The notes beneath the pieces are model-generated. The model had not been told where the DNA came from and searched no databases. It saw only the letters and a list, made by a program, of their open reading frames with translations. The position numbers and the translations under genes were made by a program. DNA of 64,000 nt, from the NCBI RefSeq assembly GCF_900100765.1, contig NZ_FNFO01000003.1, positions 124,001-188,000 of the forward strand, given 5' to 3'. This stretch comes from Catalinimonas alkaloidigena (GTDB lineage Bacteria > Bacteroidota > Bacteroidia > Cytophagales > Flexibacteraceae). Below, one piece after another: positions 17,265 through 23,841 of this stretch; within the stretch, counting starts at the first letter, position 1, and every line of letters starts with the position of its first letter.

Positions 17265-17279
17265 TACCGATCAATCCAT

Positions 17280-17316
17280 AAAAAAGCCCTGCCAGCGTTG
17301 CTGACAGGGCTTTTTT
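17280..17316. terminator. bidirectional terminator between peroxidase gene and infB
   Basis: Arms GCCCTGCCAG (17286-17295) and CTGACAGGGC (17301-17310) pair with a single mismatch around a five-base loop. Six A precede and six T follow, extending the stem and giving T-runs in both directions. It serves both the forward peroxidase gene and the reverse rimP-nusA-infB operon. Confidence 0.9.
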
Positions 17317-17332
17317 ATATTCGTGTGACGAC

Positions 17333-20300
17333 CTATAACGTCCGTTTCACTTCGCGTTCTTCGAACGATTCGATCACGTCACCCACTTTGATGTCGTTGA
17401 AGTTTCTGATGCTGATACCACACTCGTAGCCAAAGCGGACCTCCGCAACATCGTCTTTGAAGCGCTTCAGCACATCGACTTCACCCGTGTAGACGACGAT
17501 GCCCTCGCGGACAAGGCGAATATGGCTGTTCCGTTTGATATACCCATCGGTCACATAACAACCGGCTACGGTACCCACTTTCGAAATCTTGAAGACTTCG
17601 CGCACTTCGACGTTGCCCACGATTACCTCTTCTACCTTCGGCGCCAGCATGCCTTCCATGGCATCCTTGATCTCGTTTATGGCGTCGTAGATCACCGAGT
17701 AGAGACGGATTTCGATCTCTTCGTTCTCGGCTAGTTTACGCGCATTGACCGAAGGTCGTACCTGGAAGCCCACGATGATGGCATCGGCCGTAGAGGCCAG
17801 CATAACGTCCGCCTCGGAGATCTGCCCCACCGCTTTGTGGATGATGTTCACCTGAATTTCCTCGGTCGAAAGTTTCAACAGGGAATCCGACAGGGCTTCT
17901 ACCGAACCGTCGAAGTCGGCTTTCACGATGACGTTCAGTTCCTTAAATGAACCGATGGCCAGGCGTCGACCAATTTCATCCAGCGTGATGTGCTTGCGTG
18001 TGCGTACACTTTGTTCGCGCAGGATCTGCTCCCGGCGCGTGGCGATGTCGCGGGCTTCGCGGTCGCTCTCGTACACTTTCGCAATATCACCTGCTTGTGG
18101 TGCACCATCCAGACCCAGTACCTGCACCGGTACCGAAGGCCCGGCTTCTTTCATGCGGCCTCCGCGGTGATCGTACATGGCTTTTACACGACCGTAGTGC
18201 GACCCGGCTAAGAGCACATCACCGATGCGCAATGTACCGCCCTGAACCAGCATGGTCGCCAAGTACCCCCGGCCTTTGTCGAGCGAGGCTTCGAGAATAG
18301 TCCCTACGGCAGGCTTGTCTGGATTGGCTTTCAGATCCAATAGCTCAGCTTCGAGCAGCACTTTTTCCAGCAATTCAGAGATACCCTGACCTGATTTGGC
18401 CGAGACTTCTTCACTCTGGTATTTTCCACCCCACTCTTCGACCAGGATGTTGATACCGGCCAACTGTTCGCGAATGCGATCAGGGTTGGCCGTGGGCTTA
18501 TCTACTTTGTTGATGGCAATTATGATCGGAACCCCCGCCACTTGTGCGTGGTTGATGGCCTCCTTCGTTTGGGGCATTACACTATCGTCCGCCGCTACCA
18601 CCACAATGACTACGTCGGTTGCTTTCGCACCCCGTGCACGCATGGCCGTAAAGGCTTCGTGACCCGGTGTATCCAGGAAGGTGATCTTTTTGCCCGTATC
18701 GGTTTCCACTTCGTAGGCCCCGATGTGCTGGGTAATCCCCCCGGCTTCGCCTTCGGTGACGCGGGTTTTCCGGATGTAGTCAAGCAACGAGGTTTTCCCG
18801 TGGTCGACGTGACCCATGATGGTCACGATCGGAGCACGCGGTACCAGATCCTCTTCGCTGTCTTCGACGATCTCAGCCTGTTGCATCTCATCTTCCGCCT
18901 TGTAAAATTCGACTTCGTAGCCAAATTCGTCTGCGATGATGGTGATGGTTTCGGCGTCGAGGCGTTGGTTGATCGAAACGAACATACCCATCGACATGCA
19001 GGCCGAAATAACCTGGTTGACCGATACGTTCATCAGCGAGGCCAAGTCGTTGGCGGAGATAAACTCCGTCACGCGGAGTTTCTGCGAAGCTTCCTGCTCC
19101 TGCATCATCCGCTCTTCGCGTGCATCGGCAGCGGCCGACCGCTTCTCCTTCCGGTAACGTGAACGGCTTCGGCCTGAGCCCTTGCCGCCACTCAGGCGCG
19201 CCAGCGTAGCTTTGATCTGCTCCTGGATCTCCTTATCGGTAGGCTCTTCGCGCTTGACCGGCTTTTTGCCTTTGTTGTTGTCTTTGGGCGCGGGACCACG
19301 TCCTCCGCCACCGGCGGGTGCCGCTTTCCCTTGTCCAGAAGGTGTGTTGGCAACACGAACGCGCTTCCGCTTCCGCTTCTTCTTGTCGCCGTCGGCAGCA
19401 TCCCCCGGTTTGCCGGTCGATTTACCACGACCGCGGCGATCGTCGGGCAATTCGATTTTGCCCAGTACGGTCAGCCCTTTCAGGGTTTTGGCCTTGGCTT
19501 CGATCAGCTCCGGATCTTTTTCCTCCTCTTCGGCCTGAGGTGCCTTTTCGGCAGGCTTCTCAGCCGCCGGTTTCGGCGCAGGCTTTTCTTCACGCGGAGG
19601 CGCGACTGGGGGCTTGGGTTGCGGTGCTGCCGGCTTTTGCGCGACAGGTGCTTCTTTTTTCTCCTCTTTAGGAGGCGCAGGCACTTCCGCTTTTTTCTCC
19701 TCCTTTGGAGGCGTTACCGCTTCGGGAGCTTTCGGCTCCGCTTTGGGAGCGGCGGGCGGCGGGGTTGGCGCAGCGGGCTTCTCGGCGACAGGCTTTTCTA
19801 CCGGTGCTGCCGGAGTGGCCGGTTTCTCTACGGCGGGTGCTTCTTTCGGCTTCTCCTCCACTTTAGGCTTTGGAGCCGCTTCAGGTTTAGCATCCAGGTC
19901 GATCGTGCCCAGCACTTTTAGTCCTGGAAGTTTGGCACGGATCACCTCTTTCTCACCTTTGGTTTCTTCTTTCTTCTCCTCTTTGGCAGGAGCAGATTTG
20001 GGAGCTGTTTTGTCTGATCCCGCCTCACGACGGGCGTTCCCGTAATCACGAATCATCAGGTCATCGTCGTCTGCATCATGGCGATCCCCCTGCGCAGTGT
20101 TAATCACTACGTTCTCACCATGCTTATGCCCAATGGTAATGCCCGATGCTTCCTCTTTCGCCAATGCCGAAGACTCAAACTCCTTGGCCAGCATGTCAAA
20201 CTGATCCATAGTGATCTTGGAGTTTGGGTTATTTTCAATCTTAAAGCCGCGGGCCGACAGGTGCTCAGCAATCGTAGATGTCCCTACGTTGAGCTTCCGT

Positions 20301-20338
20301 GCCGCCTGGCTTAATCGCATGGTCCTGACCTCTGACAT
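17333..20338 (-). CDS. infB: translation initiation factor IF-2
   Basis: A 1001-residue GTPase that brings initiator fMet-tRNA to the ribosome. The N-terminal winged-helix-like IF2_N segment ([21 protein letters not shown]) is followed by a long low-complexity Pro/Ala/Lys/Glu region to about residue 390, typical of Bacteroidota IF-2, then a second IF2_N-like part, and the GTPase domain with [11 protein letters not shown] (G1), [10 protein letters not shown] (G3) and NKVDKP (G4). Domains II to IV complete the protein. It is the third gene of rimP-nusA-infB. A hairpin lies in the 78-base space between nusA and infB. Confidence 0.97.
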
Positions 20339-20416: not shown

Positions 20417-21667
20417 CTATTCTTCTTCGAATTCTTGCTTCAGAATCTGAAAAATTTCGTCAATCATTTCTTCTTCCAACTCCGTACGCCGCAGAAGGTC
20501 TTCTCTTGAGACAGAAAGCACGTTCTTTGCCGTATCCAGTCCAATCCGCTTCAACTCCTGAATCATCCAGGTATCGATTTCGTCGTCGAATTCCTCCAGC
20601 GGAACGTCGTCTTCGATCTCGTACCCTTCGTTGTCGCGGAACACGTCGATTTCCATATCGACCAGACGGCTGGCCAGCTTGATGTTCTGCCCACCCCGGC
20701 CAATGGCCAACGACACCTGATCCGGCTTCAGAAACACCGATACGTGTTTCATTTCCGACTCTATCTTGATGGTACTGATCTTGGCCGGGCTCAACGCACG
20801 GCTGATGAACAACTCCAGGTTGTCGGTATAGTTGATGACGTCGATGTTCTCGTTTTCCAGTTCGCGCACAATGCTGTGAATACGCGATCCTTTCATTCCT
20901 ACGCAAGCGCCTACCGGATCGATGCGGTCGTCGTACGACTCTACCGCTACTTTGGCGCGCTCGCCCGGTTCGCGTACCACGCGCCGAATCGTAATCAGGC
21001 CGTCGTACACTTCGGGAACTTCGTTTTCGAACAACCGCTCCAGGAACACCGGCGACGTGCGCGACATGATGATGCGCGGCGTGCCGTTGACAATCTCCAC
21101 CCGGTGCACAATGGCCCGCACGGTATCGCCCTTGCGGAAACGGTCTTTCGGAATCTGTTCGTTGCGCGGCAAGATCAGTTCGTTCCCTTCCTGATCATGC
21201 AACAAAATTTCGCGCGATAAAATTTGGTATACCTCTCCGGTGATGATTTCTCCCACCAGATCTTTGTATTTATCGTATAACCGGTCTTTCTCCAGGTCTT
21301 TTACTTTCTGAATCAGCGTCTGGCGCGCCGTCATCACCATCCGTCGGCCAAAATCGGGCAACTTCACTTCTTCTGCCAGTTCCTCCCCAATCTCAAAGTC
21401 TTCCTCAATTTTGCGCGCTTCCGAAATTTTCACCTGACGCGTCGGGTCCAGCTCGGGTTCGTCGTCGGCCACGATTTCGCGGAAACGCCAAATCTCCAGG
21501 TCACCTTTGTCGACGTTGATGATGACGTCGAAATTCTCGTCGGTGATGTACTTCTTCCGGATCATAGACCGGAATACATCTTCCAGAATACGGATCATCT
21601 GCGGCCGGTCGATGTTTTTTTGCCGGGCAAAATCCGAAAACGAATCAATGAGTACTTTGCTGTCCAT
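20417..21667 (-). CDS. nusA: transcription termination/antitermination factor NusA
   Basis: A 416-residue RNA-polymerase-binding protein controlling pausing, termination and antitermination. The N-terminal domain is followed by the S1 domain (about residues 135-200), then KH1 and KH2, with the hallmark VGACVGMKGSRIHSIVREL near residue 255 and LAIGRGGQNIKLASRL near residue 325. The two acidic C-terminal repeats of E. coli are reduced to one short acidic tail, as usual in Bacteroidota. The gap to rimP is only four bases. NusA regulates its own operon in E. coli; a leader hairpin here makes similar control conceivable. Confidence 0.96.
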   Translation of the reverse strand: MDSKVLIDSFSDFARQKNIDRPQMIRILEDVFRSMIRKKYITDENFDVIINVDKGDLEIWRFREIVADDEPELDPTRQVKISEARKIEEDFEIGEELAEEVKLPDFGRRMVMTARQTLIQKVKDLEKDRLYDKYKDLVGEIITGEVYQILSREILLHDQEGNELILPRNEQIPKDRFRKGDTVRAIVHRVEIVNGTPRIIMSRTSPVFLERLFENEVPEVYDGLITIRRVVREPGERAKVAVESYDDRIDPVGACVGMKGSRIHSIVRELENENIDVINYTDNLELFISRALSPAKISTIKIESEMKHVSVFLKPDQVSLAIGRGGQNIKLASRLVDMEIDVFRDNEGYEIEDDVPLEEFDDEIDTWMIQELKRIGLDTAKNVLSVSREDLLRRTELEEEMIDEIFQILKQEFEEE

Positions 21668-21671
21668 ATAC

Positions 21672-22142
21672 TTACTTAAAAGATACCTGCACCTGCGCCT
21701 GGTTGATCTGGCTAAAAAGCAGGTCGCGCGGTTGAGTGGTGGCTTTTTTACCTTTTTCTTTACGGGTTTCGAGCACTACGATCCCGTCGTGATTCACTGA
21801 CTCCAGGCGACCGGTTACCGTTTCTCCTTCCGTCAGGGTTACGTTTAGCGTTCGTCCGATGTGTTGCGGGTACTGTCGTGGTTGTGTAAGCGGAAAGTCA
21901 ACTCCCGGTGAGGAAACCTCAAGCGTATAAGCATTCCCGAACAAGTTAAGTTCCTCAAGGCGCTCTCCTAACCAACGACTTACTTTAGCGCAGTCGTCGA
22001 TCTTCACGCCTGAGTCTCCGTCCAGCAATACCACTACCTTCGGGCGTTGCGCACTTCCTTTTACCTCTACCGCTACCGGAAACAGGGAGCTGCCGGCCAG
22101 GTGCTCCTGCACCATGGCGGCGATCTGTTCGCGTTGTTCCAA
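21672..22142 (-). CDS. rimP: ribosome maturation factor RimP
   Basis: A 156-residue protein needed for 30S subunit assembly. It shows the RimP pattern: N-terminal helix, LFPVAVEVKG, VVLLDGDSGVKIDDCAKVSRWLGERL, YTLEVSSPGVDFPLT, then a C-terminal SH3-like domain. The start is a TTG at 22142; the codon two before it is a stop, and the next ATG (22115) would remove most of the first helix, so TTG is favoured. It is the first gene of rimP-nusA-infB, with a strong promoter match 74 bases upstream. Confidence 0.93.
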   Translation of the reverse strand: MEQREQIAAMVQEHLAGSSLFPVAVEVKGSAQRPKVVVLLDGDSGVKIDDCAKVSRWLGERLEELNLFGNAYTLEVSSPGVDFPLTQPRQYPQHIGRTLNVTLTEGETVTGRLESVNHDGIVVLETRKEKGKKATTQPRDLLFSQINQAQVQVSFK

Positions 22143-22164
22143 TCGTTATTTTAGGATGCGTAAC

Positions 22165-22190
22165 AAAAGAGGGGACTTGCGTGTCCCCTC
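22165..22190 (-). promoter_or_regulatory. terminator-like leader hairpin before rimP
   Basis: On the reverse strand a perfect eight-base-pair stem (GAGGGGAC with GTCCCCTC, + strand 22169-22176 and 22183-22190) with a six-base loop is followed by TTTT. It sits between the promoter at 22216-22247 and the rimP start, so it would be in the leader RNA. It could act as an attenuator, or merely end transcription arriving from the MmcQ-type gene upstream. Confidence 0.6.
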
Positions 22191-22215
22191 CACTGAATTC
22201 TAAGAATTCAATGGT

Positions 22216-22247
22216 GCAAATTTATGTAAAAAAGCAAAACATATCAA
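22216..22247 (-). promoter_or_regulatory. promoter of the rimP-nusA-infB operon
   Basis: On the reverse strand TTG (22247-22245), 20 bases, then TAAATTTGC (22224-22216) gives a full match to the Bacteroidota sigma-A consensus, including the extended C. Transcription should begin near 22210, where a 17-base palindrome (arms TGAATTC and GAATTCA, 22194-22210) lies, leaving a leader of about 65 bases before the rimP TTG start. Confidence 0.7.
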
Positions 22248-22277
22248 TGCCTCCTGTCGCCAAGGTGGCAATTTTCG

Positions 22278-22634
22278 CTAGTTGCCGGCGGCCAGTGCTT
22301 CGCGCACTTGCCGGGGCAGCCCACTTACTACCAGCTCGTACGAATCGCGAATCCACTGGCGAATGTCGCGGTCGGCCAGGTCTTCTCGCAGCAGCAGGGT
22401 GTTCCAGTGCCGCTTGTTCATGTGGTAGCCGGGCACCACGCCACGGTACTTTTCGCGTAGCTCAACGGCTTTTTCCGGATCGCACTTTACGTTGATACTG
22501 CCGAATTCCTCAATACCCGACAGCGCAAAAATTTTTCCTTTGACCTTGAACACAAGGGTCTCTTCCCCAAACGGCAGCTCTTCCGTCACACCGGGGAACG
22601 ACAGACAATACTCGCGGTATTCTTCAATGTGCAT
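22278..22634 (-). CDS. MmcQ/YjbR family protein
   Basis: A 118-residue cytosolic protein of the MmcQ/YjbR family, small double-wing-like proteins suggested to bind DNA but with no settled function. Diagnostic features are the N-terminal YREYCLSFPGVTEELPFG, the KIFALSG strand, CDPEKAVELREKYRGVVPGYHMNKRHWNTL and the C-terminal helix with SYELVVSGLP. The open frame extends to 22700, but the family start MHIEEYREYC is the ATG at 22634. Its start overlaps the end of the Na/Pi symporter gene by 11 bases, so the two are probably translationally coupled. Confidence 0.9.
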   Translation of the reverse strand: MHIEEYREYCLSFPGVTEELPFGEETLVFKVKGKIFALSGIEEFGSINVKCDPEKAVELREKYRGVVPGYHMNKRHWNTLLLREDLADRDIRQWIRDSYELVVSGLPRQVREALAAGN

Positions 22635-23841
22635 CGGCAGTGGCAGTAGGGTTGGCGTCCTGAGGCAGCACGGTCTGTTTCTTTTCTTTCCGCTGCGCAT
22701 TGCCTACGGATGGCTCTTCGACCGAGTAGATGAGCAGAAACGGAATCAGAAAGAAAACGCAAATCAGATAAATAAAGCTCACCGAACGCGTGCGGGCATT
22801 GGCCAAGCTTAACCGCTGCGCCAGCCGGAGGGGAATTTCGCGGGTAAACGGAAAGGGGAAGAAAATCATCACGCCAAGCACGTTAAACAGGACGTGTGCA
22901 AATGCAATGCTCAACGCCGCTTCGGAGCGGGGCAGGGCCGCCAGCACCGCCGTAAACGTGGTGCCGATGTTGGCTCCCATGATGAACGGAAAAGCGCGCT
23001 TCAGACTCACCTTTCCGGTACCAACCAGCGGAACAGTCAACGAAGTAATGATGGAACTGGACTGAATGGCGGCCGTCAGGCCGGTTCCCCACAGAAGGGC
23101 CTTGAAATCGCTGCCAAAGACGTACCGATCGAACCGACGCCGCGATTTCCCGATGATGACTTCTTTCATCACCATCGACAACTGCTGCAACGAAAAAAAC
23201 AGCAGCAGCACAGAAACAAACACCAGCAACAGCGGATACCCGACCATCGCCTCGCCCAGCCAGTGGGCTAACGGCGACACGGTGACGGAGAGCACATCGA
23301 AAGCCAAATCGATGTTTTTACCGCCCGACGTGTTGAACAGATGCGTAATGTCGGTCGCCAGATGGGACAACAGACCGAAATAATACTCCAGCGGAAACAA
23401 AATGACCGCTGTCAGGATGTTGAAGATGTCGTGAATGGTAGCGGCTGCAAACGCCTTCCGAAACTCTTTCTCGCGGATAATGTGCGCCATCGAGACGATG
23501 GTGCTGGTAACGGTTGTCCCGATGTTGGCTCCCATGATGATCGGCACCGCATTTTCGAGGCTGATGGTGCCTGACGCTACAATGGCCACGACCATGGCCG
23601 TAATGGTGGAACTACTCTGCAGAATGGCGGTAGACAGCAACCCGATGAACAGGGACACGAAGGGGTTGGCCATTACGCTGATGATCTCCTGAGCGATGTC
23701 GCTGTTGAGGAGGCGAAAGGCGCTTCCCATGCTTTCGAGCGCTACCAGAAAAGCATACAAGGCCACTGCCATCCAGAGGAGTCTGAGTAGCGTTTTGATC
23801 CGCGATGATAACACTACGTGGTCTTCAGCGGCTTCCGGCAT
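22624..23841 (-). CDS. Na/Pi symporter (NptA/YjbB type)
   Basis: A 405-residue polytopic membrane protein of the sodium-phosphate cotransporter II-related family. The two inverted repeats each contain the diagnostic QSSS signature: STAILQSSSTITAMVV in the first half and GLTAAIQSSSIITSL in the second, each followed by IIMGANIGTT or FIMGANIGTT. About nine or ten membrane segments are apparent. The C-terminal PhoU-like domain present in many bacterial members is absent. The frame is open to 23991; the ATG at 23841 leaves a short hydrophilic N-terminus before the first helix and is the most plausible start. It overlaps the MmcQ-like gene. Direction (uptake or efflux of phosphate) cannot be read from sequence. 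Confidence 0.87.
   Translation of the reverse strand: MPEAAEDHVVLSSRIKTLLRLLWMAVALYAFLVALESMGSAFRLLNSDIAQEIISVMANPFVSLFIGLLSTAILQSSSTITAMVVAIVASGTISLENAVPIIMGANIGTTVTSTIVSMAHIIREKEFRKAFAAATIHDIFNILTAVILFPLEYYFGLLSHLATDITHLFNTSGGKNIDLAFDVLSVTVSPLAHWLGEAMVGYPLLLVFVSVLLLFFSLQQLSMVMKEVIIGKSRRRFDRYVFGSDFKALLWGTGLTAAIQSSSIITSLTVPLVGTGKVSLKRAFPFIMGANIGTTFTAVLAALPRSEAALSIAFAHVLFNVLGVMIFFPFPFTREIPLRLAQRLSLANARTRSVSFIYLICVFFLIPFLLIYSVEEPSVGNAQRKEKKQTVLPQDANPTATADAH

Follow-up and report, generated by a model that had tools for sequence, protein, structure and literature searches.

The window analyzed here, 64,000 nucleotides of Catalinimonas alkaloidigena DNA, carries rimP, nusA and infB in succession, and a hairpin with a T-run stands between the promoter and the first of these genes. 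The question raised by this locus is what the hairpin does: whether it attenuates transcription of the genes that follow and, if so, which factor sets the termination, or whether it belongs to the neighboring gene, acts on the transcript once made or arose by chance. We consider it probable that the leader terminator is a transcription attenuator of rimP-nusA-infB, with NusA as the best candidate for setting termination. The features of the locus are listed from upstream to downstream.

22278-22640, minus strand: YjbR gene, upstream of rimP and on the same strand
22216-22247, minus strand: Bacteroidota sigma-A promoter, TTG (22247-22245), N20, TAAATTTGC (22224-22216), from sequence and pattern scan
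22212, minus strand: predicted transcription start (+1), from the rule that puts the box at -12 to -5 (PMC9723704)
22190-22214, minus strand: upstream palindrome or hairpin CCATTGAATTC-TTA-GAATTCAGTGG, from folding (11 pairs, -12.9 kcal/mol)
22169-22190, minus strand: attenuator hairpin (predicted intrinsic terminator) GAGGGGAC-ACGCAA-GTCCCCTC, about +23 to +44, from sequence, folding, conservation and covariation
22161-22168, minus strand: terminator tail TTTTGTTA, with U-run UUUUGUUA interrupted by one G, from sequence
21672-22142, minus strand: rimP, TTG start at 22142 (Pfam PF02576, 1.7e-15; PF17384, 1.8e-10)
20417-21667, minus strand: nusA (Pfam NusA_N, 1.2e-32; KH_5, 3e-29)
17333-20338, minus strand: infB, encoding IF2 (Pfam IF-2, 1.1e-39; GTP_EFTU, 2.6e-33)
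17278-17310, minus strand: terminator-like hairpin (17310-17286) with UUUUUUAU directly after infB, probable operon end, from hairpin scan

The elements named in the first-pass annotation, namely a consensus promoter TTG-N20-TAAATTTGC, an eight-base-pair stem with a T-run and, after these, a TTG codon as the rimP start (22142), were all found on the minus strand where it had placed them. Its presumed leader of 65 bases comes out at about 70 instead: the box TAnnTTTG, which in Flavobacterium psychrophilum is that of the primary sigma factor and lies at -12 to -5 (PMC9723704), puts the start near 22212 when taken at the same distance. TTG is the first usable rimP start, since a TAA closes the reading frame two codons before it, and 26 nt separate this TTG from the stem end at 22169. 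Given the terminator-like hairpin directly past infB, the operon seems to consist of rimP, nusA and infB. The whole leader folds at -28.8 kcal/mol, compared with a mean of -15.0 for shuffled sequences (z = -5.15; none of 200 shuffles was as good), and the attenuator hairpin alone at -15.1 kcal/mol.

The second hairpin of the leader, CCATTGAATTC-TTA-GAATTCAGTGG, had been overlooked in the first-pass annotation; its 5' side begins at the predicted transcription start. As DNA, 22190-22214 is a 25-bp inverted repeat, nearly perfect, that contains two GAATTC halves and spans this start. Its core, TTGAATTCNNNGAATTCA, has no other perfect copy in the 7.1-Mb genome; with up to 2 mismatches, 7 sites per strand were found, against 0 for a reversed control. 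The palindrome is absent from the rimP leaders of relatives: short helices between start and terminator occur in 40 of 200 leaders; one of these is the window's palindrome, and the others bear no relation to it in sequence. This inverted repeat may serve as an operator for a protein or as a stabilizer of the 5' end.

For the comparison across Bacteroidota, rimP was located by profile searches and the sequence before its start was taken as the leader. Leaders came from the window's family (10 of 11 genomes used as loci) and order (246 genomes with a match, of which 30 were used as loci and 20 more fetched), from 80 named contigs found with NusA (all used as loci), from the phylum (30 of the 243 genomes in which RimP matched) and from 30 members of the class drawn from eight families. 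Three copies of the window's own locus were removed, after which 198 leaders were reduced to 186 distinct ones by dropping 12 duplicates. The Cytophagales set holds a few contigs labelled otherwise, among them L110, from a MAG labelled Chitinophagaceae. A leader passed if it contained, at most 120 nt from the rimP start, a stem of 5 or more pairs that has a G-C pair at its end, includes at least 4 G-C and at most one G-U pair and encloses a loop of 3-9 bases, followed by a T-run in which T fills 5 or more of 8 positions and 3 or more of the first 5. Because this rule was set after viewing the first leaders, a later test set was drawn from 80 genomes spread over the class, yielding 64 previously unused leaders. 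Genomes with no RimP match contributed no leader (45 of 291 for the order, 4 of 247 for the phylum, 7 of 80 for the class). The RimP N-terminal domain was not found in small order genomes of 0.7-1.6 Mb belonging to families f8, f13 and f21, nor in three full-size genomes of f51, another family of the phylum (G396, G445 and G477); we interpret these cases as loss or divergence of rimP.

Under this rule, the hairpin with its T-run was detected in 125 of 131 leaders of the Cytophagales set and 27 of 30 from other class members, that is, in 152 of the 161 distinct leaders of the class, compared with 21 of 3,220 shuffles of the same leaders. The later set gave 57 of 64, with 11 of 1,280 shuffles passing (32 of 4,500 for class and later set combined). 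The antisense strand passed in only 28 of 161 class leaders and 23 of 64 later ones, so the T-run is strand-directional. In other classes of the phylum, 17 of 25 leaders have a hairpin and T-run at the same place, with stems unrelated in sequence; across all 186 distinct leaders, 27 of 3,720 shuffles and 29 of 186 antisense strands passed. Most of the misses inspected do contain a hairpin whose loop is longer, whose stem has a mismatch or whose T-run is poorer. Ten misses of the first set have one that the rule excludes for a longer loop, a bulge or a distance above 120 nt (L025, L128, L134, L136, L137, L143, L144, L148, L165 and L186), and so do four of the later set (L254, L266, L280 and L297), excluded by the same rule. 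No hairpin was seen by eye in leaders L008, L031, L184, L194, L269 and L281, and the starts of L139 and L299 are possibly misplaced. As the sequences are related, no P value is meant as exact. The first-pass annotation had made its reading depend on conservation of the stem in relatives, and the stem is conserved.

The hairpin also keeps its place behind the promoter. TAnnTTTG lies at most 50 nt upstream of it in 118 of 125 hairpin-bearing leaders of the Cytophagales set, in all 27 from other class members and in 55 of 57 of the later set; the box occurred in 713 of 12,500 and 74 of 2,700 letter-shuffled stretches and is rarer in other classes of the phylum (4 of 17). Among the 200 leaders with the box, the distance from predicted start to hairpin is narrowly distributed, with a median of 20 nt.

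The stem itself covaries, a check in related Cytophagales that the first-pass annotation had suggested. In an alignment of 77 of the 103 distinct hairpins, 7 of 10 pair positions are changed on both sides, and cells with both-side changes number 55 where shuffles give 12.9 +/- 2.8. Pairing stands at 91.4% and drops to 45.8-72.2% when the partner is shifted by one to three columns; since the rows were picked for having a hairpin, the 91.4% is inflated and the informative part is the mix of pair types. At the pair beside the loop-closing pair, for instance, A-U occurs 52 times, G-C 10, G-U 8, U-A 3 and C-G 2. Loops are 3-8 bases long, with neither their length nor their sequence constrained, and the 77 aligned hairpins share no conserved binding site in the loop or the flanking sequence. 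A free loop combined with a retained hairpin and T-run corresponds to the needs of a terminator and not to the trace of a loop-binding protein.

What is kept in the stem is its polarity, the 5' arm being purine and rich in G. This arm is G-rich (G outnumbers C) in 151 of 152 class leaders and 56 of 57 later ones (207 of 209 for Bacteroidia), compared with 53 of 161 other terminator-like sites at the same loci, only 12 of 46 when these are restricted to intergenic sites, and only 6 of 17 rimP leaders in other classes of the phylum. Because the polarity is all but fixed in Bacteroidia, recognition of the G-rich arm by a protein can be proposed. The stem may thus be a signal read in sequence, beyond its use as a terminator, with a protein, most simply NusA by means of its RNA-binding domains, reading the nascent G-rich 5' arm, and the leader a dedicated NusA sensor with a class-specific code; we regard this as possible, if somewhat doubtful. 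The near-fixed polarity is the point worth an experiment, and the natural stem variants available across the class can separate a requirement for any strong terminator from reading of the G-rich arm. Terminators of inverted polarity were observed in rimP leaders of other classes (L124, L125, L127, L129, L140 and L145); inverted stems such as GTCCCGC...GCGGGAC and GCCCG...CGGGC resemble the CCCg(...)cGGG motif of an upstream gammaproteobacterial terminator described in PMC2965389.

Does the hairpin belong to rimP at all? In the window the YjbR gene lies upstream on the same strand, as does the upstream gene in 46 of the 110 loci where one was called, and the hairpin could then be that gene's ordinary terminator. 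It sits, however, downstream of the conserved promoter motif, and it is equally present where the neighbor points away: with upstream and control genes called by longest ORF, 64 loci have a divergent upstream gene (3 have none called), and the hairpin occurs at 63 of the 64 divergent and 45 of the 46 same-strand loci. An upstream ORF was listed for 14 loci, and all 8 divergent ones scanned match known families, namely MreB, endonuclease/exonuclease/phosphatase (5), a class I (cysteine-type) tRNA synthetase and 3-hydroxyanthranilate dioxygenase. As the hairpin is kept where divergent upstream genes are real protein families, it is not the neighbor's terminator; that explanation is largely refuted and very improbable. 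Where loci have long flanks, the rule is passed by 110 of 113 rimP leaders and by 1 of 201 other gene starts. A chance hairpin would fit a general scan in which the region has no excess of terminator-like sites (7 found, 10.2 expected), yet the comparative data, conservation together with covariation, refute chance and leave it a practically negligible probability.

The stem sequence is less exclusive than its position. Besides the rimP leader, GGGGAC-N3-9-GTCCCC has one further site in the 7.1-Mb genome, which lies between two other genes. A model derived from 77 leaders, among them the window's own, ranks rimP first in the window's genome (38.5 vs 29.1 bits). Twenty other genomes were scanned; among the 14 where the position of rimP is known, its hairpin is the best match in 7, present without being the best in 6 and, in G280, not among the matches listed. 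Given the genome-wide copies and these 7 of 14, the notion of a stem sequence unique to rimP holds only partly. The GGGGAC-type model has 37 matches in G163 and 26 in G420, where this stem is thus a common terminator form and not special to rimP.

Two further explanations accept the hairpin as part of the rimP leader and assign it a different role or a different partner. It may act after transcription instead of as a terminator, by stabilizing the 5' end or by keeping ribosomes from the rimP start: two tandem stable helices occupy most of the 70-base leader, and the median distance from hairpin to start codon is 24 nt in the Cytophagales set. That distance nevertheless spans 7-70 nt in the same set, and most leaders have a T-run 3' of the stem and none 5' of it (152 of 161 pass in sense, 28 of 161 in antisense), a feature that a stabilizer would not need, so we find a post-transcriptional role improbable. 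Alternatively, the leader is an attenuator in which termination is set by NusG, RimP, IF2 or the translating ribosome. RimP binding has been raised as a possibility for the rimP-leader (PMC2965389), NusG of B. subtilis enhances intrinsic termination (PMC8060035), and in some relatives the hairpin ends 4-10 nt from the start codon, where a ribosome could interfere. Against these candidates, neither loop nor flanks are conserved as a binding site, and NusA is the factor with evidence for the rimP operon in two other phyla (PMC6511841, PMC12288461); we rate another factor as rather unlikely, more plausible all the same than action after transcription.

The attenuator reading of the first-pass annotation thus stands strengthened by conservation, covariation, the position behind the promoter, the strand-specific T-run, the control genes and the orientations of upstream genes, and as a reading of sequence it is strongly supported. 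RNA polymerase would start near 22212 and make about 44 bases, whereupon the GAGGGGAC/GUCCCCUC hairpin would form behind it with the U-run in the hybrid; some polymerases would stop at the U-run and others continue into rimP. NusA, the product of the second gene, stimulates hairpin-dependent termination, so that more NusA would mean more termination in the leader and less NusA. Across families, only the hairpin and T-run are conserved, with no conserved alternative pairing or antiterminator; a riboswitch-like antiterminator was rejected on this ground, and a protein that acts on the elongation complex most likely decides what fraction of polymerases stop. An 8-pair G-U-rich helix (e.g., TTTTGATCGATTGATTGAGG) whose 3' side overlaps the 5' arm of the terminator was observed in L021, L023, L032, L035, L038, L039 and L041, and could possibly be a lineage-specific antiterminator of that group.

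As for NusA, E. coli mutants in which NusA termination is reduced have more transcript of the operon (PMC6511841). In B. subtilis, NusA acts especially at weak hairpins or interrupted U-tracts (PMC12288461), and the strength of the rimP hairpin (-15.1 kcal/mol) is a counterpoint to NusA dependence. A weak U-tract as a sign of such dependence was rejected: rimP leaders have a mean of 6.4 T of 8, compared with 5.8 in a control set of 46 further intergenic terminators from these loci, which may include chance hits. NusA feedback on the leader terminator is likely in our analysis; termination in this organism, its partial extent and the role of NusA are what we infer. The leader of about 70 bases could be placed before a reporter for measuring NusA-dependent termination.

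In the work of Naville and Gautheret (2010), rimP ranked first among genes with premature terminators, and the 'rimP-leader' was named the most ubiquitous transcription attenuator, with G-rich and C-rich arms, a GGGc(...)gCCC signature, no antiterminator in its general form and NusA proposed as effector (PMC2965389). The statement in the first-pass annotation that this arrangement is inferred from sequence alone therefore applies to this phylum, and gives way for bacteria in general, where the attenuator had been described in 2010. The words 'Bacteroidetes' and 'Bacteroides' are absent from the main text of PMC2965389. Literature searches on 'rimP-leader' returned nothing on Bacteroidota by title; those on transcription termination in Bacteroidota returned little, and nothing on rimP-leader attenuation by title; rimP with leader, attenuator and Bacteroid returned one review only. 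The main text of a B. thetaiotaomicron transcriptome paper mentions neither rimP nor nusA (PMC7366714). In F. psychrophilum, rimP is preceded by a transcribed, structured 5' element, which is conserved in other Flavobacteriaceae genera and has no Rfam hit (PMC9723704); it shares phylum and operon with the window's leader, and the passage in that paper gives neither structure nor mechanism.

A known Rfam element was rejected: RF01770, the gammaproteobacterial rimP leader, has no match in the window at the gathering score, nor at E of 10 or below within 22000-22400, and this 102-position model scores 102 bits on the E. coli control. RF01770 shares operon and place with the window's leader, and the E. 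coli GGGC-UUUAG-GCCC-U7 hairpin beside the rimP start is near the window's motif in form. In B. subtilis, NusA is reported, from NusA-depletion work, to regulate itself through NusA-stimulated termination in the 5' leader (Mondal 2016, cited in PMC12288461); the nusA gene within the operon, an intrinsic terminator in the leader and negative feedback are common to both, the feedback being proposed here from sequence data, and the B. subtilis leader is 180 nt long (PMC2965389) against about 70 in the window.

The likeness to the rimP-leader of PMC2965389 is close. The window's hairpin precedes rimP-nusA-infB (assigned by Pfam), is short, with a G-rich 5' arm, a C-rich 3' arm and a T-run, and lies 26 nt from the gene start, within the 4-130 nt given there; like the rimP-leader, the window and its relatives have no larger conserved element or antiterminator, and the upstream helices are lineage-specific. 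Where the published signature reads GGGc(...)gCCC, the window has GGGGAC(...)GTCCCC, that is, GGG/CCC and the top C-G, with G-C and A-U between them. Relatives vary this Bacteroidota form, GGGGAC...GUCCCC, as GGGGGC, GGGAAC, GGGGUA and others, and some have exact GGGC/GCCC stems (e.g., L110, L256 and L304). The stem motif of the rimP-leader is described as occurring in no other terminator (PMC2965389), which is only partly true for the Bacteroidota form, with rimP best in 7 of 14 genomes. Taken together, the window's leader appears to be the Bacteroidota form of the already known rimP-leader attenuator, and the analysis would extend this attenuator, with likely NusA feedback, to the whole phylum.
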